Positions 17,801 to 63,506 of a stretch of DNA of 64,000 nt are shown here, piece by piece. The stretch lies in the NCBI GenBank assembly GCA_039720395.1, contig CM077832.1, forward strand, positions 124,001 to 188,000. Direction: 5' to 3'. Made by a program: the position numbers and the translations under genes. The DNA is from Liquidambar formosana. Lineage: Eukaryota; Streptophyta; Magnoliopsida; Saxifragales; Altingiaceae. The notes beneath the pieces were generated by a model that was not told where the DNA came from, made no database searches, and saw only the letters and a program-made list of their open reading frames with translations. Within the stretch, counting starts at the first letter, position 1. Each line of letters starts with the position of its first letter.

Positions 17801-18768
17801 AATTCTATAAATCACCAATTAATTTTTACCAGAAACTTGCTTCCAAAACCCAAAAACACAAATGCATATATATATATATATATATATAGTGTATGACAAT
17901 AGTAACTGTCTGGGTATGTACTGTTATTCTTAAAGATCTAAAGAACCAATGTGAACCCACAGAGAGAGAGAGAGAGAAGGGGGAGAATAACAAGGATGAT
18001 TACAATGAAGAATCAATTGAGTTTCAGAAGTAACATTGATAATAGAAGACAACAGATACTAACCTCACCTCCAAAACATGAGAGGAAACCAAACTGGACA
18101 GTATCAAGTATCGTATATCAGGACTGTCTTTTGAGAAATGAGCCCAACAACCGAATAGAACCAAAGAAAATGCTCTCGATTCAACATCCCCGGAGTAAAA
18201 AACAAGCTTCACCCTTCTGAGCAGTTCTAAGTGGTTGTCTACCCTGAGTTTCGACAAAATCCCACTATATGGTCTACTTTTCTGGTTGTTACGGTGCCTC
18301 ACCTCAGATAAGAAAACCTTAACAACGGAGAGCCTGGTATGCTTGTCACCCAACCTAAAAGCATCCGCAAGCCGGAGGAGGATGGTGTTGGCAAACAGCC
18401 TATCCTCCCCTGGAATTAACCCATACATGTTATATGCAGCCATTGTAAGTTGGGGTTCAGCATTCCATTGTTCAAGTCTTGGCCCAATCTCTAGTATGGC
18501 TTCGACAGATCGACCTGAATAGATTGTAATGCATATATGATAAAAACTCTTCTCAGTACTAATAAACATACAAAGCTGTCAGAAATCTCTTCTCAACCAA
18601 ACCAACCAACAGCAAATTGATATTGCATTTGTTAAGTGGGAAAAAAATAAAATAAAATAAAATTGAAGGTTGAAAAAAGTTGAGCAACTGACCAGGCTTC
18701 TTGGAACGAAGGCCCTTCTCAAGCTCAATGCTCCATTCCATGGCGCAAGCTGCAGATATCCTCTCCAT
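11860..18768 (-). CDS. Integrator complex subunit 7-like ARM-repeat protein (EMB1895-like), frame broken near the C-terminus
   Basis: Seven minus-strand coding exons: 18768-18693, 18514-18069, 17541-17356, 16043-15936, 15350-15144, 15058-13182 and 12414-11860. They total 3455 bases, about 1151 codons, close to the length I recall for Arabidopsis EMB1895. The N-terminus MERISAACAMEWSIELEKGL, the helical ARM/HEAT-like body (NTILLRLADAF, LFAAGCFCELSDDFA, LCLQLKNV) and the C-terminal GQGFSTCMLDVSSFPVGSY all fit that family. Known for the family: Integrator binds RNA polymerase II and processes snRNA 3' ends, and the Arabidopsis gene is needed for embryo development. The total is one base short of a multiple of three. 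In the last exon the frame ending KGQTWLGCRAWEMMIW runs into a stop, and the conserved frame resumes as LVGLSSLGDDDMVDL within 12156-12195. Intron 3 (16044-17355) contains LINE remnants. Confidence 0.85.
16745..17029 (+). mobile_element. 5'-truncated LINE (L1-type) 3' end
   Basis: Within an intron of the INTS7-like gene and in the opposite orientation. It shows the usual plant L1 tail: TTTTTGTATA, CTCTTGTATATGTCTCATGTAC, GGCCCCTTCTTTTTATATC, then a poly-A run at about 17020-17029. Only the untranslated 3' end remains. The 5' limit is approximate. Confidence 0.6.
17041..17258 (+). mobile_element. Second 5'-truncated LINE (L1-type) 3' end
   Basis: Directly behind the first LINE tail. It has the same layout: TTTTTTGTATACATCATGTG, TGGCCTAAGGCCC, TTTTCATATTAATAAATTC and a 12-13 base poly-A run ending at about 17258. 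It is more diverged than the first copy. The border between the two is approximate. Confidence 0.5.
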
Positions 18769-20040
18769 CCAGCCCTCTTCTTACTGTCTCCAATCCTTAT
18801 TACCACCAGGAGAATAAACCCTAAACTCTCCTTTCTTTTTCAGTACCCAACAAAATTAAATAAAAGAAATCAACTCGGCTAACTGAGTTAACCTGAGTTT
18901 TCTATTTTATGTTCTTCGATCAAATTTTTTTCCCCCGTTTTCCATGCGACCAACATCACGAAATCTAATTCAAATAACCCAGATAGAACATGCCATAAAA
19001 AGCATGGATCAGCCAAAAAGAAATGTAAATAAAATTCATATCATATTCAAAATAAACTAAGGCAATGTTTAAATATCATTTCGGAAGTACTTTTATTTCT
19101 TTTGAAAGCAAAATTTGTTTGAATTTTGCTCCTAATTAAAAGGGGAAAAATGCTATTGGATTGTTTCACTTTCACGTTCAGATCAATCCCAAAAATCCGA
19201 ATTTGCCTGCTTTAATCATAAAACTCAACCACCAGTAGCTAAAACACATCATATTCAAAATAAACTAAGGCAATGTTTAAATATCATTTCGGAAGTACTT
19301 TTATTTTATTTCTTTTGAAAGCAAAATTTGTTTGATTTTTGCTCCTAATAAAAAGGGGGGAAATGTACTTTCAAAATTCTCAACTCCGAATCTCCGTCAT
19401 TCTACATATTATATCAATATATATATAAAAGTGATCACATCGACCGACCTGAACTTGATGCCGGTTCTGGGACACGGGGAGGGACCTGATGAAGATTGCG
19501 AGATATCTTGAAGGGTTGTTTTTGCGAAGATTGAGGAGGTCTGGTCTATGTATTACTGTCTTTTGATTTTCATATATCATAATATTGAACAAAAGTTTTT
19601 AATTTTTTATTGTTCAAACACATTGAGTGAGCGATCTCAAGTTCAAACTTATGAAGAAGCATGGATACTCATTTGTTCGATACTAGAGAAGCATTCAATG
19701 GTCTAAACAGTCAGACAGAGCAAGAGCCAAAGAGAGAGAGTAGCTTGAAAACCCAAAACCCATTCTCCAAAAACGGCAAAACCCTTACACCCAAACACTG
19801 AAACACTGGTAATCTACAGGAATAGAACACAGAGATAGGGATTAGCAAGAGGAAGAAAGAGAATGCGAGAAGAGTTGAGGAAAGCTGGAGTCTTGGAGAG
19901 AGGAATTGTACCTTCGACGACAATCGCAGTGATTAGGGCTCGTCGACAGAATCGGCAACTCCGGCCGTCGAGAGAGGCCGCGAAGGAGAGAGGGTGAGAG
20001 AAGCAAGGGTGAAGCTCCCTGTTTAGCGAGTGTGATCACG
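18769..20040 (-). promoter_or_regulatory. Upstream region of the INTS7-like gene with a possible noncoding first exon
   Basis: Immediately upstream of the ATG the minus strand has a TTTAGGGTTTATTCTCC-type leader. At 19912 a CT-rich minus-strand stretch ends in GTCGTCGAAG followed by GTACAATTCC, a plausible donor, so 19912 to about 20035 may be an alternative 5' UTR exon. The ORF there opens only with GTG, so I do not call it coding. A CACGTG G-box lies at 20037-20042. The middle holds a direct repeat (19039-19362). Confidence 0.35.
19039..19362. repeat. Direct repeat of about 115 bp, two copies, 208-bp period
   Basis: Copies at about 19039-19150 and 19247-19362 share ATCATATTCAAAATAAACT, GGCAATGTTTAAATATC and TTTCGGAAGTACTTTTAT. 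The second copy has a 5-bp TTTTA expansion and a few substitutions. It looks like a local segmental duplication. Confidence 0.85.
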
Positions 20041-22238
20041 TGAGAGTGGTCGAATACGCCACAAGAAGTATTTCAAAAAAATTTAAAAGCGCTAGTTATA
20101 AAACCACTTTCAAAAGCCCCATTCCGACCAGCCCTTTCGATGTAATTTTATTTTTGTTTTTTCTATTTTTTTTTTTTTTTACACCGAGCATAGTTTAGGC
20201 TCAATTTGGATATTGGAAAGTTGAATAAAAAGGAAAAGGAAAATATTTGAAATTATTTATAAAATATTCCCTTTCTTGAGCACTTTTTTATTATTTTTCT
20301 TTGCTCCCTCTTACTTCCAGAATAGAGATGGGAAGCCTAGGGTTGCTGAATCCAAATGTTATGAAAATAAAATAATAGCAGTAAGTTAAATAATGTTATG
20401 TGGGTGATTTATTTTTTTATTAGTAGAATAAAACAAAAAGATGAGGTATTGGCCCTGTTGTTGGGCGCTAGTGCCAATTAAGACAATATTTATATGTGTA
20501 TTGAAAACAAATAAACCAAAAAAAAAAAAGTTAAAGAATCATGTTGAACGAAGCAGCAGCACTTACAACATTAATGTTATGAGCTCGGCCGTCCAAGGCA
20601 ATGCAAGTCCTTTGGTACTATACTTAGCACTAATTTATACTAATAATCAAGCACACACATCAACAATACATTTTTTCAAGTTTCTTAAACCGCATGTGTG
20701 AATGTATAAGAGATAATTAAAGGAAAATAGGTTATGGTGGATTTTTTAAAATTGGTAAAATTATTAAATCGTCTCTCAAATTTATTAACTTGTAAGAATG
20801 TTTTAATATTTTTAGGTGCAATCCAACCATAAAAGAATTGATTTTATAGATAGTATAGATAATATGGATACTCTTTAACTTTGCAATACAACGTGCAACA
20901 TCTTTTTAATTCAAAAAGTGATAAAATTGATTGGCAATTTCTATCTTTAGCACGATTTATTCTACAACATTACCTCAAGAGTTTCTCTCCATAAAAAAAA
21001 GTCTACATCTGATTAGGATGAAATCGGGCTCCCAAAGAACAATACAAGGGTTTTTTTTATACTCCTACTTTAATCAGTTCTGCCTATAAACCATAGTTTC
21101 CAGGAAACCACCGTCTTTGCAATCCTGCAACTCAGGCAGGGAACTAAAGGTCAACCCAAACTCAACCCCATCGGCTGGAAACCTCTGCCTTGGGCCGCAT
21201 ACCTCAACCCAAACAAACCTCCAACCCGCCCTCAATTTTGTAAGCTCGGGTTCGGGTCGAGCGGGCTTACATACAATGGTAACCTCTGATTAATTAGTAC
21301 AAATAATGAAGGAATAGACATAAATTGGAATAAAAATATTCCGTCAAGAGTGTCTCCAATTATGTGGACGATGAATTCCAAATGGAATGCATTGCGCCTA
21401 GAATTCAAGTACATGGAGCTTTAAAAAGATGATCCAACCAAAAGGTTTCCTATTCCTACTACTCCTATGTATGAAAAAAAATACGGCACGTCAATAAAAG
21501 GGAGTTTTTACCTTTGTACCAATCAATTCCATTATTTTACAGCGAAATTTCCCCCCCGGTCTAAGTACCCTAACAAGCAACATTTCTTAACGGAAAGAAC
21601 CAATATCTTATCAACTCAATTAAAAAATTCTCTATAAATGAAGCATGTGGATCATGAGATGAAAAAATAAAAATAAAAATAAAAACAGAACATTTCTACA
21701 TTTCTGCACTTTCCGACGAGAGCGCACTGTTTTTGTATTTCCAAATCAAAATGCATCCTTTTTTTGTTTACCAGTCTATTACAATGAATAGTTTACAAAA
21801 AAGATATTGACGACGAGTGTTCAGAGTTAGAATTAGGGCCATGTTTGTTTGGTTGGAATGGAATGGATGGAATGGAATTTCATTCCAAACAACATGTTTG
21901 GATGAAGTAATTATATCGGAATGGAATCAAATAGTAATAGTGAATTATAATGATATTCATTCTACAATGTTTATTTCAATCTCATTTCATTCCAGACTAT
22001 TTTGAGCATGGAATCGGATTCCATTCCCACCCATTCCATTCCAATCAAACAAACATGGCCTAGGTATAATCTGATCCGAGCTATTCTAATATTAACCAGA
22101 TTTTTGGTGCCTTATGGGACCCACTTAATCAAGGGCTACAGAAACAGATCAGGCTTGGCCACTCGACTCAATTAGTAGTTCGAGTTCAAGCTCAAGCTCA
22201 AGCTTGTTTTTGTTTTATCAAGTAAACGTGATTGCTCA
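20041..22238. other. Intergenic region, mostly AT-rich, with one MITE
   Basis: No gene supported. It contains T-rich tracts (20160-20180), scattered A/T repeats and the foldback element at 21836-22060. Short ORFs are not conserved-looking. Confidence 0.6.
21836..22060. mobile_element. Foldback MITE (about 225 bp)
   Basis: The ends GGCCATGTTTGTTTGGTTGG and CCAATCAAACAAACATGGCC are inverted repeats. The match continues inward through repeated GGAATGGAATGG and its complement, so most of the element can form a hairpin. The flanks are TTA at the left and TAG at the right, so the target duplication is unclear (TA is shared). Confidence 0.75.
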
Positions 22239-22390
22239 TTAGCAGAATTGCTTCTTGTCCTTGCTACAGAAGGCTTCCAACACTGTCATATCATCCGATG
22301 AGCCAACACCAAGAACTGCTTCTTGATGCAAAAGCATTCGATCCCTCATGCATCTCCTAAAAGCACCTGCATTATATGGACCATCACAAG
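22239..22390 (-). CDS. Candidate 3'-terminal coding exon of an unidentified minus-strand gene or isoform
   Basis: A good acceptor (TTTTTGGTTGCAG) at 22391 opens a 152-base frame that encodes CDGPYNAGAFRRCMRDRM, then LLHQEAVLGVGSSDDMTVLE and AFCSKDKKQFC, and ends with TAA at 22239-22241. The composition looks like real protein. I do not recognise the family. The stretch 22990-23130 (minus) has a similar protein-like frame, LGFVILNDEYLVFGRR then SSSENLHYKWCSALSTR, and could be the preceding exon. Both lie just 3' of the RH41-like gene, so they could also belong to a longer 3' isoform. Confidence 0.35.
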
Positions 22391-23339
22391 CTGCAACCAA
22401 AAACAAAGTAAATGACTACTAAGAAGTAATGATGAAACAAAACACCAGACTGGACAAGCCTCATCTACTAACTCTAAATTTTTTTACAACAAACCGATTC
22501 ACAATTCTAATCAATGCTTACTACGATATTTCTCTGTAGTCTCCCCTACGGGACACACAGTTACGTGATGGGGTCTTTGCCATTTAATGCTCATCATGCT
22601 GAGGAACCATGACTCCATTTAATATTAAACAATGGACCAGGGCGGGGGGGAATGAAAACAGAGTCGATAGTGTCAGTAAAATCGGTACTTTCTACTATTG
22701 TTCTCATTATAATTCCCCTAAAAAAGTCTCTGCTTTTCAACACTTGTACATAATGAGGCTCCATTGGTTTTGATGGAAAAAAAAAATGAAGAAATGAAGT
22801 GCAACCATGCTGTTGTGTCAGTTATTGTAAAACTGTTGAGCCATGTCAAATAAATTGCATAACATCACCTAGACACAACTGGTTCATGCAGCCTATTTCC
22901 AACAAAGTGGCAACCCAAAAAATTAAAACTGAAAAGGGAACAGGGAGCCACTTGTCATCATTTTTCAATTAAAGAGTAAAATTCCTATCAAGATGGTACC
23001 TACGTGTTGAGAGAGCACTGCACCACTTGTAATGTAGATTCTCCGATGATGACCTTCTTCCAAACACTAAATATTCATCATTGAGGATTACAAAGCCAAG
23101 CATCTCTTCTCAGTTGCCATCATCCTCAAAAGTATTTAGAGAAAATGAGAGAACAGTGAGACTTGTGAATGACGTGGAGTTTTTATTGAACACTACATAA
23201 TTCAAATAATATGGGTACCCCCAGATTGGGTTTCCTCGGGTTTTTTTTTTCACAGTCAAATTGTTGCTTCACACTTTGCAAGAACTAATGCAAATCTGAA
23301 TAAGAATTTAGGCAGCAAACGAATGAAGCTCCAGAAACT

Positions 23340-25293
23340 TTAGAAACCATGCTTCCTTTTCTTCTGACCCTTGCCAACAGAGAAAGAACCTACAGTGTAG
23401 CGAGAATTAGAAAGCTCCCGAGGAATAGCAGCTCCAGAAGATCTCAAAACTTCAACCAACTCCGGAAACACATTTTTATTCTCTTCATTCACAAACACAA
23501 ATGCTCTACCCTCCTCTCCCAGTCTGGACGCCCTCCCAATCTGATGGACATACTCCTTAATCGAATTCGGCATGTCAAATACAATTACCTGTCTCACACC
23601 CAAGAGATCAACTCCCCGACCCAAAATCCCAGTAGCCACAAGCACAGGGACCTCTCCCACCAAGAATGTTTTCATGATGTCTCTCCTCTCCTTCATGGAT
23701 TTCTCCCCATGGATTGATAGAGCTTTCATCCCAGTGGTGACCTTTATTGCTTCAGACAATAGATCTGCCCCAAATCTCGAACCCACAAATACAACAACAG
23801 GTGGCATAAAATGCTGCTTGCTCATCAATATGTCAAAAAGCTTTTGCTTCTTTTGCTTTGACTCAACCCAAATAGCCAGCTGCTTCACAGCCCCATTTGG
23901 CCTGTTTCGCTTCCCAATGGAGACAACAACAATGTCTTTCATCATCGAGCTGGCCATCTTCTCAACCTCTTGTGGGATTGTGGCAGAATACATCAAAATC
24001 TGAGGTCGTGATAGAGCCCTAAAAATCTGCATTACCTGATCACGGAAACCCTTTTGGAGCATGCAGTCCACCTCGTCCAGAACAAGAGTCATAACATCAT
24101 CTAGTTCAATGTCATGCTTAGTTAAAAGATCAATTAGCCTGCCTGGAGTTCCCACAATCAGTTCCACCCCTTGCTGAATGCGGTGGAGTTGTCCAGCCAT
24201 GGCATCACCACCAACCACAAGTGCAGTTTTAAAGGGCAAACCCTTTCCAAGCAACTTAGCTTGTTCCTCTACCTGCATACATAGCTCTCTAGTTGGTGTT
24301 AGAACCATTGCTAATGGATTTTTCTGCTTCGAAAAGTGCTGAAGACGAAAATTTGCACAATGAGAAATAATAGGAACCAAAAAGGAAGCAGTTTTCCCTG
24401 AGCCTGTGTCAGCGGAAACAAGCAGGCTTTTGCCAATCAAAGCAGCTGGGATTGCCTGCATTTGGACAGGCATGGGCATTTCATATCCTGCAGCTTCTAT
24501 ATTTTGGAGGAGCTTTTGAGGAAGATTACAAGAAGAGAATGACAAAATGGGTGCAGAAAGAATGTCTCCCCTAACACAGATTTCAAGTTTCCTTCTGAGC
24601 AATTCAGTCTGCTCATTATTTAATTGAGATTCTGACTTATCACTACTGTCTGTAACATAAAAGCACTCATCAGTTGTGAGTACTCGTTTTGGAGGTGGGA
24701 GACCAGCTGGCAATCGGGAGTTGGCAACCCTGCATAGGAGAGCCTGTTTACATTCCAAGCTGCAAATATCATCATCTGTCTCATCACATATATACTCACC
24801 ATAGCGGCCACATATAACACACTGAGGCTCCCCTGGAAGAGCTTCTCTCTGGTCCCAACACCTAGCTTTGACATTATTTGCAGCATCGGGGACTGAAAAC
24901 AAATACATCAGGAAATGGATTTAAATTTTTTTATCTCAAACTACTTGCAAACTTAAAATGCAGGATGAAACCATCAACACTGATGTAAAGACAAATTATT
25001 TAAAACTTTTGAGTGATCACCACTGACAAGAAAAATCCTAGCTTCTATAAGCTTACTCAACAAAATCTTACATCAGGTAAAGTTATATTGGGATCAGGTA
25101 ACACAATGAAGCCAGAAATAATAATAACAAAACAAGATCTTCCAAGTGTTGATGGTTTCAGTTGATGCACTCCAAAAGTCACAGGAGTAAAACAAAATGA
25201 ATTTGGGAGGTCGGCCTTGTTACCTGTGGTCTCATCGCCATCTGTTACTACCATTGAACTTCTGCTTTGATTACCCTCATTTCCATCTTCCAT
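23340..25293 (-). CDS. RH41: DEAD-box ATP-dependent RNA helicase 41-like with N-terminal HIT zinc finger
   Basis: Two exons (25293-25224 and 24892-23340) encode an intact 540-residue protein. A HIT-type zinc finger spans about residues 48-71 (CVICGRYGEYICDE, then CSLECKQALL). Helicase motifs follow in order: Walker A ADTGSGKT 184-191, PTREL 223, GTPGR 271-275, DEVD 296-299 (Val where DEAD has Ala), SAT 326-328, ATGILGRGVD 443-452 and HQIGRASR 473-480. A basic KKRKHGF tail ends the protein. The zf-HIT plus DEAD combination and the DEVD variant match the plant RH41 family, slightly longer than the roughly 505 residues I recall for Arabidopsis. The general role is ATP-driven RNA unwinding; the specific substrate is not known to me. 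ATG 25293 (MEDGNEGNQ) was chosen because the upstream frame has no ATG. Confidence 0.96.
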
Positions 25294-35598: not shown

Positions 35599-35638
35599 GC
35601 ATGGAAGTTCTTTTTATTTTTATTTTATTTATTTTTTG
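35599..35638 (-). mobile_element. Target duplication and tail fragment of a split SINE
   Basis: The 16-base GCATGGAAGTTCTTTT at 35599-35614 is repeated exactly at 37533-37548. Next to the left copy, on the minus strand, is an A-rich tail (AAATAAATAAAATAAAAAT) ending at 35615. This is the distal part of the SINE at 37409-37532, separated from it by the Mutator-like insertion. Confidence 0.75.
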
Positions 35639-37408
35639 GTTAATTACTTTTTAATACCTTCAACTTTGGAGGTAGTTTCAATTTGGTCCACAAACTTTGA
35701 ATTGTTTCAATTTAGGACAATTTATAACTTTTTGTTGCAATATGGTCCAGAGGCTGACGTCCATTAGGGTTTTTGACGGAAATGGCATGTGCCGTGCACG
35801 TGATGCTTACGTGGAGCCTATGTGGCATCTACCTGTGTTATAGTCGATTATAAGTTTTAAAGTTTTTATAGTCGACTATAAGTTGTTTGAAAAAAATGAT
35901 GTAGGCCAACTATATATTCTGGCCAACATCTGGCCTTCTCCATTTTTTCTGACGTAATCAGTTATGGGGTTTTCTTAATCTTGTAAGAAGCTAAGATAAG
36001 AGAAAAAAGTTTTTAAAAAAATCCAAACCCCCAGATCCAAACCCTAACTTTAAACCCATCACCATAGGTACTGGAGTCAAAATATAATACAGAGTAAGCG
36101 ATTCATATAGGTGAGTAACAATGACCTTCAGCGATTAAGCAGATGAGAATGGGACGATCGGCGAAGGCAGGCCTTTTGAAATTGGCTGCGGTGGTGTTCG
36201 GAGCCTTAGCGTTTGGGTGGCTAGCCATAGGGCTGGCGTTGAAGCCGTTTCTAGACAAGGCTTGAGCGGCCATGGACAAGTTTGACCCCACTCGCGATCC
36301 CGACGAGGTCGACGGCGACGGCGACACTTCTCTGAAAAATTCAACGTCCGATGAAGATGCCTTCGGCGATCGCAAGTAGCGGCCGAGGTATTTTAGGTAA
36401 AATGCCCTATGTAGGTATGTTTCTTATAGAGGTTTTTGGGGGTTATACTAAGAGGCACTCTATGTTCTAATCACAGAAAAATGTTTAGAGTCAATTGAAG
36501 GTACTGGAGCCTTCACGCATTAAAATTGTTATAACTAAGGCCGCCTTGTTATGCTGCTTCAAATCGTCACCTAGACATCTATTTTGAAGGGATAAAGAGA
36601 GATCGACTACAGGCGAGGTGCTGAATAAAACCCAAAAATTGAAAATCACACACATGCTCTGTTTCTTTCTACCCTCGTCACTGTCGGTAGGCACTACCAT
36701 CGCCAACCGCCAAAAATGGGGGCAAGGTCCATAGTGCCGTTTCCGGGCATGTCAACACAGTACATAGTACGCCAAAAATGGGTTTTTTATGCTAGCTTAA
36801 TTTGCTGGATTTGGTTGAAGTCAAGCTTAGGGATTTTAGATTCTTCTCTAGCAATTTTGTCCAGTTCAATATTAAGCCTTCATGTAAAGAAGAGGGTTTT
36901 ATATATATATTTTAATTAGCAGTCAACGTCTCCTGTTGAATGAGAAGCAGAATCGCCATCAACCTCAACCTCATCGCAATGAGTCTTGTCGCTTGCCGGA
37001 CAGTTGCCCGACGTTCTCCATTACTGTTAAAGCCTTGAAACCCTAGATCTCTCTGGTTACAACCTATCTGGTTCCATACATCCCTCCCCAACTTTGCTGG
37101 TTGTTGTTTGCAAGAATGATCACGTCAGAAAAAATGGAATTGGTTAGAATATATAGTTGGCTGGAGACTTATAGTCAACTATAAAAACTTATAGTCGACT
37201 ATAACACATGTGGATGACACATAGGCTTCACATAAGCATCACTGTGCGCGGCACATGCCATTTTCATCAAAAATTCTAACTGGACGTTAGCCTCTGGACC
37301 ACATTACAATAAAAAGTTATAAATTGTCCTAAATTAAAACAATTCGAAATTTGTGGATCAAATTGAAACTATCCCCAAAGTTGAAGGTATTAAAAGTTAA
37401 TTAACCCT
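35639..37408. mobile_element. Gene-capturing Mutator-like element (Pack-MULE) with terminal inverted repeats of about 300 bp
   Basis: The left arm (35639 to about 35965) and right arm (about 37105 to 37408) are inverted copies. They share GTTAATTA, TTTTAATACCTTCAACTTTG, ATTTAGGACAATTTATAACT, TGGTCCAGAGGCT, GGCATGTGCC and TTATAGTCGACTATAAGTTT. The flanks give TTTATTTTTTG at the left and TTTATTTTTTTG at the right, in keeping with the 9-11-base duplication of Mutator elements. The inside carries an OEP7-like coding copy (36149-36379) and more GC-rich, gene-like sequence up to about 37100, but no transposase. Confidence 0.85.
36149..36379 (+). pseudogene. Captured outer-envelope protein 7 (OEP7)-like gene copy with premature stop
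   Basis: From ATG 36149 the frame reads MGRSAKAGLLKLAAVVFG, then a membrane segment ALAFGWLAIGLALKPFLDKA, a TGA at 36263-36265, and in the same frame AAMDKFDPTRDPDEVDGDGD and a tail to TAG at 36377-36379. This is the layout of small chloroplast outer-envelope proteins of the OEP7 type: one transmembrane helix, a WLAI..AFKP-like core, then a DP(T)RDPDD-like acidic end. The TGA stands where relatives have Arg, fitting a CGA to TGA transition. A few codons upstream another in-frame ATG (36143) exists. Lying between the inverted repeats of a Mutator-like element, it is a transduplicated copy. Confidence 0.75.
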
Positions 37409-46200: not shown

Positions 46201-49200
46201 TGGCACTGTCATCAAACACCGAGACTTCGAGGAAAGATCCAACTATTATGATGCCCTTTTGGCCGCTGAATCACGTGCCATCTCTGGGAAGAAAGGGATT
46301 TATTCTGCCAAAGATTCTCCAGTGATGCATGTTACAGACCTTGTGACGGTTAGAATTGGAAACATTTTTTTTCCTTTTTGAGGTTATTTTCTTTCTTTCT
46401 TGAAGAGCTGCCAGTTTATCACATTCACTATTTTTAAATACTTCATACATCTCAGGCATCAGCAAAAAAGGCCAAGGATTTCTTGCCATTTCTGCAACGG
46501 AGTAGGAAGCTTCCTGCTACTGTCGAATATGTTTTTAGTGGTCATCGGTTCAAACTGCTAATTCCCAAGGAAACATGCAGCATTGCATTCTCAGTTCTCT
46601 GGTGTTAGATGTCCTGGTCGTGATGAACCTTATTCAGATGAAGCCATTGCATTAATGAGACGAAAGATACTACAGAGGGATGTTGAGGTACTACTTCTCT
46701 ACTACCCTTATTCTTGATCACTGCGCTACCCTGCTAATTTTTTTGTTTTCTTACGCAGATTGAAGTAGAAACTGTAGATAGAACCGGAACTTTCTTGGGA
46801 TCTTTATGGGAATCAAAGACAAACATGGCAGTCGTACTTCTTGAAGCTGGACTGGCAAAGCTTCAAACTGCATTTGGTGCTGACAAAATAGCAGATGCTC
46901 ATCTTCTTGCACAGGCTGAGCAATCAGCAAAACAGCAGAAATTGAAGGTTAATATAATACAGTGCATGTGTGTGTGTGAGTGTGTGTTTTAGGTAATAGT
47001 AACTTGTATTTTGTTCTCTGTCCAACCTCTGTGCTGACGGGTATTTGGTAGCAGATATGGGAGAACTATGTCGAAGGAGAGGAAGTTGTAAATGGCTCAG
47101 CCACTGAAAGCAGACAAAAAGAAGTGTTGAAGGTGATTGTTTATGAATGTATTATGTAGCTTCCCTTCAGTGCCTCTCTATTAAGTGACTGACTTGTAAT
47201 GTCACTGTGGTCAGGTTGTGGTTACCGAAGTCTTGGGGGGTGGTAAGTTTTATGTCCAAACAATTGGAGATCAGACGGTTGCCTCTATTCAGCAGCAACT
47301 TGCTTTGTTGAACCTTCACGAAGCTCCTGTAATCGGTGCCTTCAATCCTCGCAAGGGTGATATTGTTCTTTCTCAGTTTAGTGCGGATAATTCCTGGAAC
47401 CGAGCTATGGTAAGACTATAAGAGTGATGCACCTTAGATTATTACTTGTCACTTACAAATCATTTGGCATAATCTGTTAACTACTATTTGTATTAACCAT
47501 CAGTGTAGGCAAATGGCTGAATTAATGCATTAATTGAATTGTAGACTTTTCTTTTTAGTCTTAATAAGTCACATATATTTAATCAATATAATATAGGCAT
47601 CTTGTTCCCTACTAGGAAGCACGGATACTCCAAAACCCCCTTCGAATCCGTATCGGATACCGATACGCCCCAATATGTATTAGATATGTTCCGTATGTAT
47701 TAGAACAGTGTCACAGCATCGGATACGTCCCGATACACCAAGGATACTGCACCAATACGTTTTGGATACGGTGGGATACAGCTAGGGGTCATTTCGCAAT
47801 TATTATTTTAAAAAACAAGAGTTTAAATGAAAATTTTAAAAAGATCAGGGTAAAATTTGAAATAAAATATATGTGATACATATAAATATGTATGTTTTTA
47901 TAGTGGTGATTAATTGATTATTAATGATTTAATGATGCTATATTGATATGTGAATATGTGATACACTAATATTGTTTACATCTTTGTATTTGTGGCTTTA
48001 TTATAATGTAGTACTATGTACAAAATAAAGTCATATTATCATACATCTTTGTATTTGTGGATTTATTGATGTTTTAGACTAAATATACATATTAAAATAG
48101 TTATTTATTAATATATCCCCGCCGTATCGTATTCTACATTTTTTTTAGAATTGCCGAATCGGTGTATCCATATTGTATTGAATCCCGTACCTGTATCCGT
48201 ACCGTATCTGTGCTTCTTAGGTTCCCTACCATCGGATATAATAAAAACTAGTCTGGAGGTTGAATCAATGAGGAGACTAGGTGATGGGGACAGCATGCAC
48301 GTGGTTCAACCGGGTGGTCCAATACGGCTTATTAACTTGAAGACCAAGGCTTTAGCATATTTATTTTAGGCATATTTATTTTTAAGAATAATTAAATAAA
48401 TGCCTTTTAAATTCCTAGGTTTTAGGGTTGAGTTTTACTTTATTTGATGTAATTGGGACCTATATATAGGGCTCCAATAACTCTTTAATATTTATCTTAT
48501 TATGAATTAAAATTGGGTTTTCCCACGTTTGGGTTTCGACTCCAAACAAACCCTAGCTAGGGTTCCTGCTTCTTGCTTCTTCCAAGCTTCTTTTCTTTTT
48601 TTTTCAAACTTCTTTTCTCTTTCATTATTCTCAAGAGGGTTGTCCTGCATCAGCTTGGTATCAGAGCAAACTTTGATCCATCCACTGAAACCGTTGTCTC
48701 TCCTCTGTCAAAGTGCGAGCCGTAAGTGAATCACCACCGTTAAGCAGCCCTCTCCATTCCGTTCGTCAGCATCGTCACCGTCAGTCCACTGTCAGCTTCA
48801 CGGCATCTCCACCGCTCACTTCATTGAGCCCTCTTCCCTTGAAGCACAAACCCAAAACCCTCACGGTGCAGCCGCGAGTCAAGGAACCCAATGGATCAAA
48901 AGGTTAAGTCGATCCAGTTCATCAGTATCACCGGCGACCTGCCTCTGCCATAAATCTTCACCATCACCATCATCGGCGCAGCACATCGTCGCTCTGACGC
49001 CAGCGCCGACAACTCCTCTCCCTCTCACGATCTACAGAACCACCACCGCAAGTCCTTTTGTGCCATCTATCACTCACCGTTGATTCTCGCCGTCGATAAC
49101 TTCTGCCGGCGACCCCCCTTTTGCCGTCGCTTTCCACCGCCGGTGCACAACCTCGTTGCTGTTGCCGTCGCCACCATCCACCAGCCTTGTTGGATCATAC

Positions 49201-52200
49201 GGACCCCTGCCGGTGACCCTTTTCCGGTGAGACCCCTTGCCGGCGATTCCACCCCTTTTCCGCCGTCGACCCGCTGGGAGCTCTCTCTATTCTCTCTGTC
49301 GGATGCTTCGAGAATGCATCAAGAGGCCAATAACGTATTTGAGATAAAGGAGAACAGGCTTGTTTGGTTACAACTTTTTGAGTGTTCCAGTTGCGAATAA
49401 GGAGTTGTAGACCTTGGACAGGGCTATCCCAACTACGGATTAAAGTGTTCTATTCAACTAGGCTCTGCTATCCAATCCGTGGATAGGGTTATCCCTGACT
49501 CAGTTTCAAGAATCCTAATCGAGGAAGGTTATTGCAATTGGAGCTAGAATCGCGGATGAAGTTATCCCCATTCCAATCCAAAAGTATCAAATTCCAATTT
49601 TGGGCAAGATTATCTTCAATTCAATTCAGGCTATTCTAACCAAGGATAAGCTATTCTGGTAGGCAAAAATCATGGACAGGGTATCCTACCCCGAATCAGA
49701 ATATTCCGGTCCAGGTTATCCTAATCTAGAATACTTAATTCCTATTCTTTAGCTGATTTGTTTTGTTTATTTAGAATTGTATCAATTAATTTCTCATGTT
49801 TGATTAAAAAAAAAAAAAAAAAAAGAGTGTTTTGAAAAAAAAAAAAAAGAGAGAGAAAAAGAAAAACGAGAAAGCTTTTAAAAAAAAAAAAAAAAGGAAA
49901 AAAAAGAAAAGAAAAATGAGTTGAAAAAAAGAAAAAAAAAAAAAAAAAAAAGAGATGATTACTTCAGAATACCAACTTGAAAAGCTACTCATAGATTTTG
50001 GGAGAAAACTTATAGTTCCTCCATATTATGTTGGTGAGCTTCGCTGTCTACTTAATAAGCTTGTATACAACTTGTCCAAAGTAGAACCATTCCCATCTCA
50101 GTTCATGCAAGATGCACTTGGGCCTTCAATGATTGCATTAATATCTCCTAGGCTTTTGAGGCATCCGAATATTGATGTGAGAGTTTCAGTTGCATCGTGC
50201 CTCTGTGAGATTTTGAGGATAGCTGCACCAAATTCTTCTTATAGTGATGAGCAAATGCGGGAAGTTTTTCAAGTCATAGTTGCAACATTTGGTACATTAC
50301 TTCCTGAGTATAAATATTATTACACATCTTTTGCCATTCTTCATAAAGTTGCAAGGACCAAGTTATGTCTAATGATGCTGAATCTTGGGTGTGACAAGTT
50401 GTTTATTGAGATGTTTCAGTATTTTCTAACAGTGGCTCAATTCCATTGTCCCGATAATATGTTTGCCAACATGGAAGAAATCATGACTATGGTTCTACAG
50501 GAAAGTAATGACATTTCTAGGGAGCTTCTATATCCTCTTTTGGATAGTGTGAGAAAGGATTATGGGAATGTGGGATCTTTGTCTTGGCAATTGGGAGAAC
50601 AGGTCCTCATGAATTGTGCTGAAAAATTGAAGCCCTATCTTATGGAAGCAGTACAATCCTTGGGTTCTGTTTTAGATGATTATGCTCCAATTGTTACTTC
50701 TATTTGCAAAGATAGAGCTTGTGTAAATCTCGTGGAAGCGACTCCAATGGACTACTCACCATGGGAGTCCATAATGAAACTAATTCAAGACATGAGTGCC
50801 AAGCTCGATGCCCAACCACAGTCGGATCTCGCCAATGAACCAGAGCCTATGCCACAAGGAGTTGTTTCATTCCCTAACCCTATGCCAACTAAAGACAATT
50901 TGGAAGAGGATATTGAAGTCGTCACTAAAGTTGACCATTTATGTGCTGAGTTTGTTTCTACAGTGGAACATTGGTGTACTGCGGATGCTAGTTCTTTCGA
51001 GATTCAAGAAGGAATAGTTGCAAAGGATGAGTCTTTGGCGCCAAGAGTTGTTTCAGAATTTGCGCATGGTACAAAGGATTTGGTCATGGATCTTGCACCC
51101 ATTGCTGATAATTTGGGTGTTGAAGAAATTGTTGTGCAAGAATCTCATCCTGAGAAGACCAACTTGTCAAAATTTATTGCTTGTCCGTCCGGCCTACTCG
51201 AGGTCCAAATCATAGATTTTCTTGGTGTTGAAAATTTTGAGTTGACATGTGACCGCTATTTGCTCGAGTTCTTTGCTAAATTGAAGATTTTACTTCGGGT
51301 TGCACAGTTTGCAGTGGAATTAACTCAACGACTCAAACAATTGGCCTATTCAAAGTATCTGTTTATTTGGAATGGACGAATTCAGTATCTCCATCCAAAC
51401 TCAAACTCGAGGTCGAGTTTCTCCCACCCCGGGAGAGTTGATGGGGACAGCATGCACGTGGTTCAACCGGGTGGTCCAATACGGCTTATTAACTTGAAGA
51501 CCAAGGCTTTAGCATATTTATTTTAGGCATATTTATTTTTAAGAATAATTAAATAAATGCCTTTTAAATTCCTAGGTTTTAGGGTTGAGTTTTACTTTAT
51601 TTGATGTAATTGGGACCTATATATAGGGCTCCAATAACTCTTTAATATTTATCTTATTATGAATTAAAATTGGGTTTTCCCACGTTTGGGTTTCGACTCC
51701 AAACAAACCCTAGCTAGGGTTCCTGCTTCTTGCTTCTTCCAAGCTTCTTTTCTTTTTTTTTCAAACTTCTTTTCTCTTTCATTATTCTCAAGAGGGTTGT
51801 CCTGCATCACTAGGTTAGTTTGATCTGGTGAAATTTTTGGTTCAATATGTGTCAGATTATGAAAATAAGTGGATTAAATTCTGAGAGAAGAAACCAATGA
51901 CCTGTTGGTCTAATGCTGTTCAGTGTTCACGGACTGGGAAGGGGAGGGGGGTGGCTTTCCAAGAAATAGCTGTGTAAAAGTTGGGAGATCAAGCCACAGA
52001 AAGTTGGGAAAAAACTGAAAAAAGCTACCTTGTGCCATGCTGGTTAAAGAGGTGGGATTAAAGGTGAATATGTGATGCTATGTGCTGAAGTTCTCATATG
52101 TCCTAAATGGAAATCAAAAAGGGAAAAGAAAAGGAAGGCAGAAAAAGGCCAGTTGCACCTGTTCAATAGTTAAGTCCTGTTCAATAGTTAAGTTCTTGGC

Positions 52201-54159
52201 TGCTTGCTGGTTTTCGCCGGTTCAAATCCCAACCTGGTGTAGTCGTTCGCAGAAAGGGTTATGGTTGACATTCTGACTGCTTCAACTGGCCTGTCTGGTT
52301 TTTTTTCTTGGTTTGCATGATGGATTGTGGATGGTTATGTGTAATTTGTGCATCAGGTGTATAAATATTAGGCTTATTGTCTAATCATCCTATCAATACA
52401 ATTCTAGACAATGTGGTTTCAATATCAAACACACATCTATTGATGATGTAGAGAAGGGCTTCAACCCAATATACCATTGTCCATTTTGTCCCCACACCTT
52501 GTTTTGATGCTCCAATAGTCAACAACATTTCATGTTTACCAGAGTTTTCTTTAGGGGTACTGTAATCACCGTTCGTGTTTGAACTTTAAGATTACCATAC
52601 CAAAATCTGAGCAAACATTTTGTCCTATAAATATTGTTACACGAGAGAACTCTATGTGTATGAGACGTTGAGCCCCTTAAGCAAGCAATGTTGGTAATCA
52701 TTCAGCCACATTTTTTTTGTAGCCAAGGGATCAAGATTCAAGAATGATATTGAGTTCAGGGTCATAACTCATAAGCATACAGGTGCAATACATACGGCTT
52801 ATAATTTTCTGAACAAACACCACACACTTGCTTAAACTGTTTAAGGCACACAAACCTAAATATGGTTTCTTTTTAACTATTTATTTAATGTATAAATTTT
52901 GATTTTTTGTTTAATGTGTAAATTTTGACCTTTTTGTTCAATGTATAAAGATTGTAAATGCACCAAGAGGAGCTGTTGAGTCCCCAAAAGATGAATTTGA
53001 AGTGTTCTACATCGACTATGGGAACCAAGAGGTAGTTCCCTATAGTCGGTTGCGTCCTCTTGATCCTTCCGTATCATCTGTACCTGGCCAGGCTCAGCTA
53101 TGCAGCCTTGCATACATAAAGGTTCCAAGCTTAGAGGAGGATTTTGGTCAAGAAGCAGCTGAGTATCTTAGTGAATGCACTCTCAATAGTTCTAAAGAGT
53201 TCAGGGCCATGATCGAGGAAAGGGATACTTCCGGAGGGAAAGTGAAAGGACAGGGTACTGGGACAGTCCTACTCGTAAGTCTGGTTGATGTTGAAGCTGG
53301 TACAAGCATCAATGCAGCTATGTTGGAGGTTTGTACAGTTGCTTGTCCTTTGTTTTTTCTTCTTTGTAAATTGGTAGCTTCTTTTTCCATTAAACAAAAT
53401 AAAATAAATTCGTAGCTCTTGATTTTTCACTTCCACTGTGACTTTATCTTCTGAATGCTATCTATAATTGTGAATTGATATAAGGAGGAGGGCCGCCGGG
53501 GGGGGGGGGGGGGGGGGGTGGGGAATTGAACTCTTCTACATAGGTCAAATGCCAACGTCCAGTAATGTGGCTCTTGTATGATCACAGATTTATCTGCCAA
53601 GCTGAGAAACTCCTATGATATGCTTAGATTTGTCTTAGTGGGCTGCCAACTTTTAATGTAAAACTGTGATCATTTGGCCAAATATCTAGGTTTGCAAGGC
53701 ATCCTATTTTTGATGTTTTAACTATTCAGTTTCCTTTTAATTGTGAATTTGAATTTGAAAAAAATGATAATTTTTGGGAGCCTTGCATGGTGTCTGACGA
53801 CCATCTAAGCATGTAGTAGCATTGATGAGTGGTGATTTGGATCTTTCTTGTTTAGATTTGGTTGCTAGGAACCGAGGAAAAGAGTTCATTTGCATGTTAA
53901 TCTCTTTCTGTCAGGATTTAAAATTGCATTCTTCAAAGTTAAATCTGAAAATTGGTTGTTAAAATTCCAGGCAGGGCTTGCAAGATTAGAAAGAAGGAAG
54001 AGGTGGGATTCCAAGGAAAGACAGTCTGCCCTTGAAAATTTGGAACAATTCCAGGACATGGCAAAAACCAACCGACTGAATATGTGGCAGTATGGAGATA
54101 TCCAGTCCGATGATGAGGATCAAACTCAACCTATGAGGAAAGCTGGTGGTCGGCGTTGA
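40262..54159 (+). CDS. TSN: TUDOR-SN (Tudor staphylococcal nuclease) protein, one-base frameshift in exon 11
   Basis: Sixteen coding exons: 40262-40414, 41276-41350, 41446-41559, 41692-41796, 42853-43059, 43183-43398, 43482-43589, 45420-45590, 45687-45884, 45986-46348, 46456-46687, 46759-46947, 47055-47132, 47215-47409, 52951-53328 and 53971-54159. The total is 2971 bases. Without one extra G at about 46594 it would be 990 codons, the size of Arabidopsis TSN1 (about 991 residues as I recall). Four SN-like domains fill about residues 10-665. A Tudor domain ([17 protein letters not shown], then [20 protein letters not shown]) spans about 775-835, and a partial fifth SN domain and basic tail GGRR end the protein. 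The family binds RNA, supports mRNA stability under stress and acts in stress granules. The extra base turns IAFSFSGVRC into [12 protein letters not shown] at about residue 620, removing the Tudor part. Intron 4 uses GC-AG, and all introns are phase 0. Intron 14 is 5.5 kb because of two transposons. Confidence 0.95.
40703..40889. mobile_element. Hairpin MITE, copy 2 of a two-copy family
   Basis: In the first coding intron of TSN. The left arm TGTTCCTATGTGGACGTGCT pairs with the right arm AGCACATCCTCATAGGAACG. Inner arms GCACCATGCATTG and CAATGCATGGTGC also pair. It shares GCATTG..GGTTGTACCCCTTGCATT with the copy at 30239-30412. TA-rich flanks. Confidence 0.78.
47613..48220. mobile_element. 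Mutator-like MITE (608 bp) in TSN intron 14
   Basis: Flanked by a perfect 9-base target duplication GTTCCCTAC (47604-47612 and 48221-48229). The ends TAGGAAGCACGGATAC and GTATCTGTGCTTCTTAG are inverted. Subterminal regions repeat the words GGATACG, CCGATACG and CCGTATC. The 9-base duplication points to the Mutator superfamily. No ORF. Confidence 0.88.
48282..48652 (+). repeat. 5' LTR (371 bp)
   Basis: Begins TGATGGGGACAGCATGCACG and ends GGTTGTCCTGCATCA. It contains a TATA-like CCTATATATAGGG at about 48468-48480 as a promoter candidate and CCCTAGCTAGGGTTCC further on. It matches the right LTR along its whole length by eye. Confidence 0.96.
48656..48667 (+). promoter_or_regulatory. Primer-binding site complementary to initiator Met-tRNA
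   Basis: TGGTATCAGAGC, three bases after the 5' LTR, is the usual plant LTR-retrotransposon site that pairs with the 3' end of tRNA-iMet. It fixes the element's orientation as plus. Confidence 0.93.
49955..51526 (+). CDS. PDS5-like (cohesin cofactor) ORF inside the LTR retrotransposon
   Basis: An uninterrupted, intronless 523-residue ORF. Residues 1-255 resemble the N-terminal HEAT repeats of plant PDS5C/D-type proteins: a [18 protein letters not shown] helix, [14 protein letters not shown] at 79-92, [17 protein letters not shown]-like [25 protein letters not shown] and [12 protein letters not shown], then [12 protein letters not shown]5 binds cohesin and controls its loading and release. 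Residues 256-494 (acidic, with [15 protein letters not shown]) match nothing I know. The end [15 protein letters not shown] is typical of sequence before the 3' LTR, and the last 28 or so codons run into the LTR itself. The lack of introns suggests capture through a spliced RNA. Whether it is translated is unknown. Confidence 0.8.
   Translation: MITSEYQLEKLLIDFGRKLIVPPYYVGELRCLLNKLVYNLSKVEPFPSQFMQDALGPSMIALISPRLLRHPNIDVRVSVASCLCEILRIAAPNSSYSDEQMREVFQVIVATFGTLLPEYKYYYTSFAILHKVARTKLCLMMLNLGCDKLFIEMFQYFLTVAQFHCPDNMFANMEEIMTMVLQESNDISRELLYPLLDSVRKDYGNVGSLSWQLGEQVLMNCAEKLKPYLMEAVQSLGSVLDDYAPIVTSICKDRACVNLVEATPMDYSPWESIMKLIQDMSAKLDAQPQSDLANEPEPMPQGVVSFPNPMPTKDNLEEDIEVVTKVDHLCAEFVSTVEHWCTADASSFEIQEGIVAKDESLAPRVVSEFAHGTKDLVMDLAPIADNLGVEEIVVQESHPEKTNLSKFIACPSGLLEVQIIDFLGVENFELTCDRYLLEFFAKLKILLRVAQFAVELTQRLKQLAYSKYLFIWNGRIQYLHPNSNSRSSFSHPGRVDGDSMHVVQPGGPIRLINLKTKALAYLF
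51431..51437 (+). promoter_or_regulatory. Polypurine tract before the 3' LTR
   Basis: GGGAGAG lies immediately before the 3' LTR, after CTCCCACCCC. It is short for a polypurine tract but correctly placed for priming plus-strand synthesis. Confidence 0.6.
51439..51809 (+). repeat. 3' LTR (371 bp)
   Basis: Same sequence as the 5' LTR on visual comparison, including length-variable T runs. It is followed directly by the CTAGG duplication (51810-51814). Confidence 0.96.
51815..52950. other. Remainder of TSN intron 14
   Basis: No exon or complete element recognised. A GGTTCAAATCC box B-like word at about 52219 sits in possibly old SINE-derived sequence. The acceptor AAAG/ATTGTAAATG at 52950/52951 ends the intron. 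Confidence 0.5.
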
Positions 54160-61673: not shown

Positions 61674-63206
61674 GTACATGCACTTGCTATGTCTACGATA
61701 TTTTTTTATGTTCGTGGGGCACCCATCTTTTATATTAATGCGCATGCAGTGCTTCCAATGTCATTTCTTAAACATCTTTTACATGGATCTTGTATTCTTG
61801 TTATATTATATATTCATCATTTTAATTTTAAAAGAAATTATTTCTAATATATAAGGAGCTACCTAAGGTTTTGAGTTTGTGCCAAAGCCCTTTGATTCGG
61901 CCTAGTTAGGCTCAGATCTAGCCCAAAGTTAGCTAGTGGACTCATACCCGACACCCTAGACCAGCCCAACCCAACCCAGCCTGACCAAAACAAATCTTTT
62001 AATTGGAGCAATCCGCCCTAAATCGATCACTCCATCCAAATCAAAGATGGACGATTTGTTTTGCTTTCCCCTCAAGGCCACCTCCTATGAATTTTGTTCA
62101 ATAATCAATAATTCTCAACACATATAGGATAGGAGAATTGTATGTGCCAGAGAATTAGTCAAGGGCAAAGCATTTATAACCTCCTAATATATATATATAT
62201 ATATATAAAAGTAACAATAAGGTAAAAGCCATTGTGAAAAAGGGGGTCTTTTGAATTAACAAAGAAAAAGGGGGTCTTTTGTCTTCTTCTTTCTTTTTTA
62301 TTTTTTCCTATGATTTAATCTATAATTTTCTATATACATATTTGGGTCGGTCGGGGAAAAGAAGAGAAAGCTAAGTATGAGAAACATGTGCTGCAAAAGA
62401 AGCGAAAAACCAAAATTAAAGGAGGGAAAGCCCATCCAATGATGAGAAAGGTGTGTGGTTGTGGAAGGTAAGAGTTTTTGTTTTTTTATTTATGGATAAA
62501 AAGAAAGATACAATTATTTTCACATTCTTTTTTACTTCATTTACGTCCCTTTCATGAGTAAAAGAATTGCAAAAATAAACTATGAAAGGCATTGACAAAG
62601 CCAAAATGAGTTTGAAAATATAATGTCCTTAGATTTATAGCATGAGAAAATACAAGGTAAAAGACTCTTGATGGCAAGGCGTTTCTGTCTTTTATTTATG
62701 GATAAAAGAAAAACTCTTGATGGCAAAGGTACTTATGTACATGCACTAGCTATGTTTATGATATTTTTATGTACGTGGGGCACCCAATCTTTTATATTAA
62801 TGCGCATGCAGTGCTTCCATTGTCATTTCTTAAACATCTTTTACATGGATCTTGTATTCTTGTTATAATATATATTCATCATTTTAATTTTAAAAGAAAT
62901 TATTTCTAATATATAAGCAGCTACCTAAGGTTTTGAGTTTGTGCCAAAGCCCTTTGATTCGGCCTAGTTAGGCTCGGAGCTAGCCCAAAGTTAACTGTGG
63001 ACTCATACCCAGCACCCTAGACCAGCCCAACCCAACCTGACCAAGAAATATCTTTTAATTGGAGCAATCGGCCCTAAATCTATCACTCCGTCCAAATCAA
63101 TGATGCACGATTTGTTTTGCTTTCCCCTCAAGGCTATTCTCATGAATTTTGTTCAATAATTATAAGACAGGAGAATTATATGTGTCAGAGTATTACTTAG
63201 AACCTC

Positions 63207-63245
<39 letters not shown>

Positions 63246-63506
63246 ATAATAATAATAAAGTAAAAGCTACTGTGAAAAAGGAGGTCTTTTGAATTAACAA
63301 AGAAAAAGGGGGTCTTTTGTCTTCTTCTTTCTTTCTTTTTTTTTCCTATGATTCAATCTATAATTTTCTATATACGTATTTGGGTCGGTAGGGGAAGAGA
63401 AGAGAAAGCTAAGTATGAGAAACATGTGCCGCAAAAGAAGCGAAAAACTAAAATTAAAGGAGGGAAGGCCCACCCAATGATGAGAGAGGTGTGTGGTTGC
63501 GGAAGG
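61674..63506. repeat. Tandem segmental duplication, copies 61674-62468 and 62737-63506
   Basis: The two copies share GTACATGCACT, ATATTAATGCGCATGCAGTG, TTTTACATGGATCTTGTATT, TTTGATTCGGCCTAGTTAGG, GGGGGTCTTTTGTCTTC and AGCTAAGTATGAGAAACATG in the same order, offset by 1.04-1.06 kb. Differences are scattered substitutions and TA-run lengths. A 268-base unique spacer separates them. Both copies end in the same protein-like frame (see 63381-63542). Confidence 0.9.

Follow-up and report, generated by a model that had tools for sequence, protein, structure and literature searches.

Capture of host genes by plant long terminal repeat (LTR) retrotransposons is already known. The maize element Bs1 has transduced pieces of a plasma-membrane H+-ATPase and of other genes (as described in PMC13317346), and a survey reports 672 LTR-captured genes in rice, 1,343 in sorghum, and 424 in maize, some of which were multiplied by the element (PMC3726574). 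Many of those in sorghum are reported there to be under purifying selection; hence, the combination of capture and selection has precedents. The system described here is an LTR retrotransposon in a 64-kb stretch of DNA from Liquidambar formosana (herein the window), whose sole long open reading frame (ORF) begins with a part of the cohesin regulator PDS5. The analysis points, with a probability of roughly 85%, to a recently active family of non-autonomous LTR retrotransposons that captured a PDS5C-class mRNA long ago, receives its enzymes in trans, and carries an ORF that helps the element.

An earlier note, made from the letters of the window, had described the element with its LTRs, TG..CA ends, CTAGG duplication, and primer-binding site of the tRNA-iMet type, and all of these were reproduced. 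The parts of the element are as follows.

48282-51809, forward strand: complete LTR retrotransposon of 3,528 bp, non-autonomous
48277..48281: left target-site duplication CTAGG
48282..48652, forward strand: 5' LTR of 371 bp, TGATG...CATCA
near 48459, forward strand: motif TATATATA in the 5' LTR, spotted by eye
48656..48667, forward strand: primer-binding site TGGTATCAGAGC of 12 bases, initiator-tRNA-Met type, three bases past the 5' LTR
48668..49954, forward strand: leader with no recognised gene, an A-rich 3' end, and variation between lineages
49955..51526, forward strand: sole long ORF, 523 codons plus stop, extending 88 bp into the 3' LTR
49955..50719, forward strand: ORF residues 1-255, intronless N-terminal HEAT-repeat part of a PDS5C-class protein
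50720..51436, forward strand: ORF residues 256-494, second half common to the family, no family assigned
51431..51437, forward strand: putative polypurine tract, the short purine tract GGGAGAG
51439..51809, forward strand: 3' LTR of 371 bp, 0 mismatches to the 5' LTR
51810..51814: right target-site duplication CTAGG

The primer-binding site TGGTATCAGAGC presumably corresponds to the 3' end of initiator tRNA-Met from plants; it reads TGGTACCAGAGC in one of 11 paired copies and ends in ..GAGA in the copy termed L069. The putative polypurine tract consists of just GGGAGAG before the 3' LTR and reads GAGAGAG in two of the 11 copies.

The ORF has the appearance of a true coding sequence. The other two forward frames contain 32 and 42 stops across its length, and in both halves G+C is higher at first codon positions than at the other two. 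Its final 28 codons come from sequence of the 3' LTR. The earlier note had seen plant PDS5 in the first 255 residues, and the profile search bears this out: Pfam PDS5 (PF20168) matches residues 31-229 at E 5.3e-39, covering profile positions 5-203 of 1053, and four other element ORFs match it at E-values of 6e-36 to 5e-44. By sequence, the ORF finds its best PDB matches in chain 5hdt of human PDS5B (E 3.4e-12) and chain 5frp of yeast Pds5 (E 3.7e-11). An AlphaFold single-sequence model of residues 1-255 reaches a mean predicted local distance difference test (pLDDT) value of 66, and its top three fold matches are Pds5 chains at E about 3e-3; as no match lies at E ≤1e-3, the fold search has supportive value only. 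A chance assembly of unrelated pieces is ruled out for the PDS5 part, and the same ORF recurs at many loci of the genome.

Homology to the host PDS5 genes stops at about residue 255, so that most of the PDS5 solenoid is absent, and no Tudor domain of Pfam matches the ORF. Residues 256-494 gave no family above the cut-off (the strongest being DUF1284 at E 0.23) and no match to later exons of the host PDS5 genes in the DNA fetched; the AlphaFold model of this half, with a pLDDT of 38, is not usable. A resemblance of the ORF tail to the photosystem I subunit PsaD was rejected as chance level (E 0.55-1.9). Pfam scans of the ORF, its second half, and one leader ORF returned no gag-pol family, and the ORFs of four other copies none of gag or pol at E up to 1. 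The absence of gag-pol stated by the earlier note thus stands, and gag homology across the ORF, which it had named as a refutation, did not appear. Since no gag-pol was seen, the enzymes are probably borrowed in trans.

Copies of the element were searched in the same 718-Mb assembly, and all copy numbers are lower bounds for this one genome. The LTR gave at least 41 matches (best 40 of 836 candidates scored), the ORF at least 135 (best 87 of 963), the PDS5 profile at least 44 (best 44 of 275), and the peptide of host exon 2 at least 150 (best 150 of 209 scored), three of which lie in host PDS5 genes. The 20-mer at the LTR start, with ≤1 mismatch, occurs at a minimum of 100 forward and 100 reverse sites, compared with 0 for the reversed control. 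Of the 30 loci with the best protein matches, 10 contain an ORF of ≥500 codons, and many copies carry stops or are partial. Neither the viral nor the prokaryote contigs searched contained a relative. Twelve LTR pairs were examined: 22 of 30 excised LTR loci formed 11 pairs, and L069 is the twelfth. All 12 are flanked by an exact 5-bp duplication, and nine have identical LTRs; the remaining three differ at 1 of 372, 6 of 371, and 8 sites, the last being L069. Exact duplications together with mostly identical LTRs indicate that the family moved recently, in both main lineages. Separately, G000:C1:4090107-4094190 carries three consecutive LTR copies, of which two stand head to tail, an arrangement expected from unequal LTR-LTR recombination.

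From 60 loci, 21 ORFs were drawn, the remainder being same-place duplicates, loci with no long ORF, or broken or short ones. They belong to lineages A (nine copies, 523-528 codons), A2 (one copy, 522 codons), B (seven copies, 454-482 codons), and C (four copies, 338-474 codons). The C copies are mosaic: three have an A2-like front and C_C5 an A-like front, and all continue B-like (C_C9 briefly). L069 (L069:1528-4593; G000:C6:17191127-17194192), with the duplication TAAAG, represents a further lineage, in which the HEAT core is mostly lost, whereas the first 86 residues and the rear part remain in one open frame of 405 residues. Between A and B, the LTRs differ by 2.4-4.3%, yet the ORFs have a synonymous divergence (dS) of 0.48, and the leaders are alignable only in parts. 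Segment exchange between co-packaged RNAs, that is, template switching, would be the simplest account of the mosaics and the unequal divergence. As to leaders, the one at G000:C12:5047846-5052576, the widest (4.73 kb) of 36 spacings listed between neighbouring LTR starts, agrees at 93% with the leader of copy L017 over 500 bp; the window copy and B_C16 match its first bases only.

Three intron-bearing host PDS5 genes were found, herein called C8, C7, and C16 after the sequences of the assembly on which they lie. C8 spans about 6,786.6-6,803.7 kb; of C7, exons 1-5 lie at about 12,373.6-12,376.7 kb; of C16, exons 2-5 lie near 622-625 kb, and a Tudor match at 608 kb probably marks the gene end. 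C8 and C7 have in common a five-exon front followed by a long charged open frame, to which C8 adds a Tudor exon. They resemble what we take to be the PDS5C class, and C16 the PDS5A class. Exons 2-4 measure 204, 182, and 127 bp in all three genes. The ORF crosses four junctions of C7 without an intron, at residues 34, 102, 162, and 204; the exons that meet there are equally long in C7 and C8.

50056, forward strand: site of host intron 1, absent in the element
50260, forward strand: site of host intron 2, absent in the element
50440, forward strand: site of host intron 3, absent in the element
50566, forward strand: site of host intron 4, absent in the element

In the PDS5 part, lineage B is 58.8% identical to C7, 51.8% to C8, and 37.4% to C16; for the window copy, the values are 52.5%, 45.9%, and 33.2%. 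In a tree for which the program warns of the long C16 branch, all 21 element ORFs fall into a single clade (100/100), and this clade joins C7 (100/98). A and B have a common one-codon deletion relative to all three host genes, and their second halves are homologous. With values near saturation, dS is 1.08 for C7-B, 1.28 for C7-A, and 1.57 for C7-C8. Because of the single clade beside C7, the four absent introns, and the high dS, a single old capture of a spliced C7-type message is the likely origin. Independent capture events in A and B, each taking a related PDS5 gene and with the A-B signal stemming from host selection before capture, would fit leaders that align in parts only but are very improbable in view of the single clade, the common deletion, the homologous second halves, and the constraint also seen within B and between A and A2.

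Further matches of the Tudor peptide were rejected as PDS5, and none had PDS5 front exons in the adjoining DNA fetched: by eye, C7:1148918 looked like MSH6 and C12:25851082 like an enhancer-of-polycomb-like (EPL) gene, and C12:32747914 and C2:7021179 belong to other Tudor genes. The loci L064 (G000:C12:32747700-32756700) and L063 (G000:C2:7014000-7021500) contain lysine-rich Tudor-like frames that by eye are unlike PDS5, MSH6, and EPL.

The ratio of nonsynonymous to synonymous substitution rates (dN/dS) was determined after Nei-Gojobori for 12 pairs, and five pairs were given bootstrap and wrong-frame controls; the pairs have a common history and are not independent, and the sequences were picked for open frames, which excludes stops and not missense changes. 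In the PDS5 part, dN/dS lies between 0.13 and 0.56 across the 12 pairs, with Fisher p ≤0.02 in 11. It is 0.36 between A and B (bootstrap 0.24-0.55; p 5e-8), 0.36 between A and A2 (0.21-0.60), and 0.13 (0.05-0.29), 0.20 (0.08-0.45), and 0.23 (0.10-0.48) in three B pairs. Read in wrong frames, these five pairs yield 0.63-1.96. Over most of the ORF, the pooled ratio of nonsynonymous to synonymous differences per site (pN/pS) amounts to 0.46 for the 36 pairs of lineage A and to 0.33 for the 21 pairs of lineage B. Low values compared with the wrong frames indicate purifying selection inside the element. Such ratios imply that new copies arose from copies with a working ORF; hence, the ORF protein probably helps the element. 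The earlier note had proposed that a retroelement family captured a PDS5 fragment and kept it open, expecting multiple copies with an open ORF, a Ka/Ks below 1 between them, and an intron-containing donor-type gene with junctions inside the ORF. All three were found, and copies, junctions, and dN/dS support the proposal.

These findings can be combined into the following scheme. Long ago, one spliced host PDS5C-class mRNA of the C7 lineage would have fused into a retroelement RNA, which left the HEAT-repeat part (the first five exons, the fifth partial) with the leader ahead of it and another coding segment behind it. The element would take its enzymes in trans from another element, and copies with a working ORF would have seeded new copies. 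Most likely, then, the element is mobilised in trans and the ORF serves the element. A PDS5 piece that was carried for long, selected, and recently spread suggests that it helps the parasite, and it may do so by dodging or exploiting host chromatin control.

How it would do so is addressed by a preferred but tentative proposal, namely that the ORF is an anti-silencing decoy of RDM15/PDS5C against RNA-directed DNA methylation (RdDM), kept by selection and recombined between lineages. Judged from sequence, the fragment would represent the HEAT/ARM part with which an RDM15/PDS5C-type factor binds proteins, minus the chromatin-reading Tudor domain; since a binding half without the reader resembles an expected competitor, it could compete with the host protein in RdDM and thereby leave its own family less silenced. 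RDM15 is the product of AT4G31880, which we take to be PDS5C. In agreement with this assignment, PDS5C is known to recognise monomethylated histone H3 lysine 4 (H3K4me1) (PMC11519323). RDM15 (AT4G31880) has an N-terminal ARM repeat and a C-terminal Tudor domain reading H3K4me1; it interacts with NRPE3B of RNA polymerase V, and a subset of RdDM loci need it for small interfering RNA and for methylation (PMC8184781).

Several points weigh against this scheme and the decoy. The part of RDM15 that contacts NRPE3B is not stated in the text seen of PMC8184781. The pair A_win-C_C5 has a PDS5-part ratio of 0.56 that is not significant (p 0.1). In the second half, dN/dS is 0.35-0.73 and not clearly apart from the wrong frames (0.38-1.65), indicating weak constraint. 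Because the mobilised L069 lost most of the HEAT core, this core appears dispensable in cis for some copies. Finally, LTR spacing revealed no enzyme donor: the 36 neighbouring spacings among the 100 exact LTR starts listed (up to C12) are all ≤4.73 kb, and there was no wider LTR pair among 41 further matches listed.

Other roles for the protein were considered. It might be an adaptor that rides cohesin or replicating chromatin and aids nuclear retention or integration of the cDNA. Its origin in the front part of a cohesin regulator fits, as does the constraint on the PDS5 part; the docking motif, however, does not. According to the review PMC8198109, PDS5 docks WAPL and other factors through the motif A-P-D/E-A-P. 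This motif is intact in all three host genes (APDAP, APDAP, APEAP) but altered in 21 of 21 element ORFs, which read APNSS, SPNSS, APSPS, ATSPS, or APTPP.

50225..50239, forward strand: APNSS at the docking-motif position of the window copy, residues 91-95

Most of the solenoid is missing as well (the match ends at position 203 of the profile), and the window copy is located in a gene intron; thus, an adaptor appears unlikely. Similarly doubtful is a cytoplasmic accessory that would bring the RNA of the element into the virus-like particles of its partner. Such a role would suit the sole long ORF of an element dependent on the particles of another, and the mosaics indicate co-packaging, but no gag-like or RNA-binding family was detectable in the ORFs scanned. 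A poorer candidate still, and already disfavoured, is a functionless passenger with a frame open merely through youth. The many copies that are partial or contain stops would agree with it, as would the mobilised L069; however, the capture is old (dS about 1.1 to C7), yet frames of 523 and 482 codons persist in separate lineages, and the five controlled pairs have PDS5-part ratios (0.13-0.36) below those of the wrong frames. The preferred reading remains an ORF that serves a trans-mobilised element.

The neighbourhood of the element contains the following frames.

open frame 47200..47421, forward strand: Tudor-SN-like exon, the last before the element, identified by eye
open frame 52915..53415, forward strand: next Tudor-SN exon, TUDOR domain at E 9.9e-11

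SNase and TUDOR domains occur in open frames flanking the element, and the gene name Tudor-SN was assigned by eye. Since the flanking frames look like Tudor-SN exons, the element appears to lie inside a Tudor-SN intron, on the same strand. Elsewhere in the window, Integrator subunit 7-like exons and a gene for a HIT-zinc-finger DEAD-box helicase lie on the minus strand (13157-24920); an inverted repeat at 35638-37406 (137-nt arms, 88% complementary, 1,495 nt apart) is possibly the remnant of a DNA transposon; and a segment of about 1 kb at 61722-63506 forms a direct repeat whose units are spaced about 1,050 bp apart and are 91-97% identical. An Rfam scan of the window at gathering scores gave no match.

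No description of a PDS5-bearing retrotransposon was found in the openly licensed literature, so far as its texts were accessible, and the terms 'PDS5' and 'cohesin' are absent from the main text, as available, of a 2026 gene-capture review (PMC13317346), the capture survey (PMC3726574), and a host-factor review (PMC12786077). As diverged lineages hold one old, constrained capture, selection on a captured host gene can be measured inside a retroelement. A PDS5C-class gene is tied to both cohesion and RdDM, which makes counter-defence by a retroelement directly testable; if true, the decoy would be a retrotransposon anti-silencing protein built from the host's own silencing machinery.

TRIM (terminal-repeat retrotransposon in miniature) and LARD (large retrotransposon derivative) elements are defined by absent coding capacity; the present element, in contrast, has a constrained ORF of 523 codons. 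From an autonomous Ty3 or Ty1 element it differs in that neither gag nor pol was found in the ORFs scanned. VANDALs are DNA transposons. The VANC protein of the Arabidopsis VANDAL elements, which acts against the silencing of the family that encodes it (PMC5735166, PMC10398659), is alike in the proposed role only, as the ORF described here is a HEAT fragment of host origin with a putative anti-silencing role. With RDM15/PDS5C and the PDS5 regulators it has a homologous N-terminal HEAT/ARM part in common; compared with RDM15/PDS5C, however, the ORF retains about 255 residues only, lacks the Tudor domain, has a changed docking motif, and is mobile. Unlike the captures surveyed in rice, sorghum, and maize, the present case allows one old capture to be compared across diverged element lineages with the host gene as outgroup. 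A further likeness is to Bs1, an LTR element whose host-gene pieces form part of a chimeric ORF known to undergo transcription and translation, although none of its transduced segments contains a full-length ORF (PMC13317346, in the text available). As in Bs1, spliced host-gene sequence lies inside the element, here with four host introns absent. Compared with Bs1, the present family has a single PDS5C-class host gene as the front of its ORF and is large; it comprises several lineages, has inserted recently, and shows purifying selection that can be measured.

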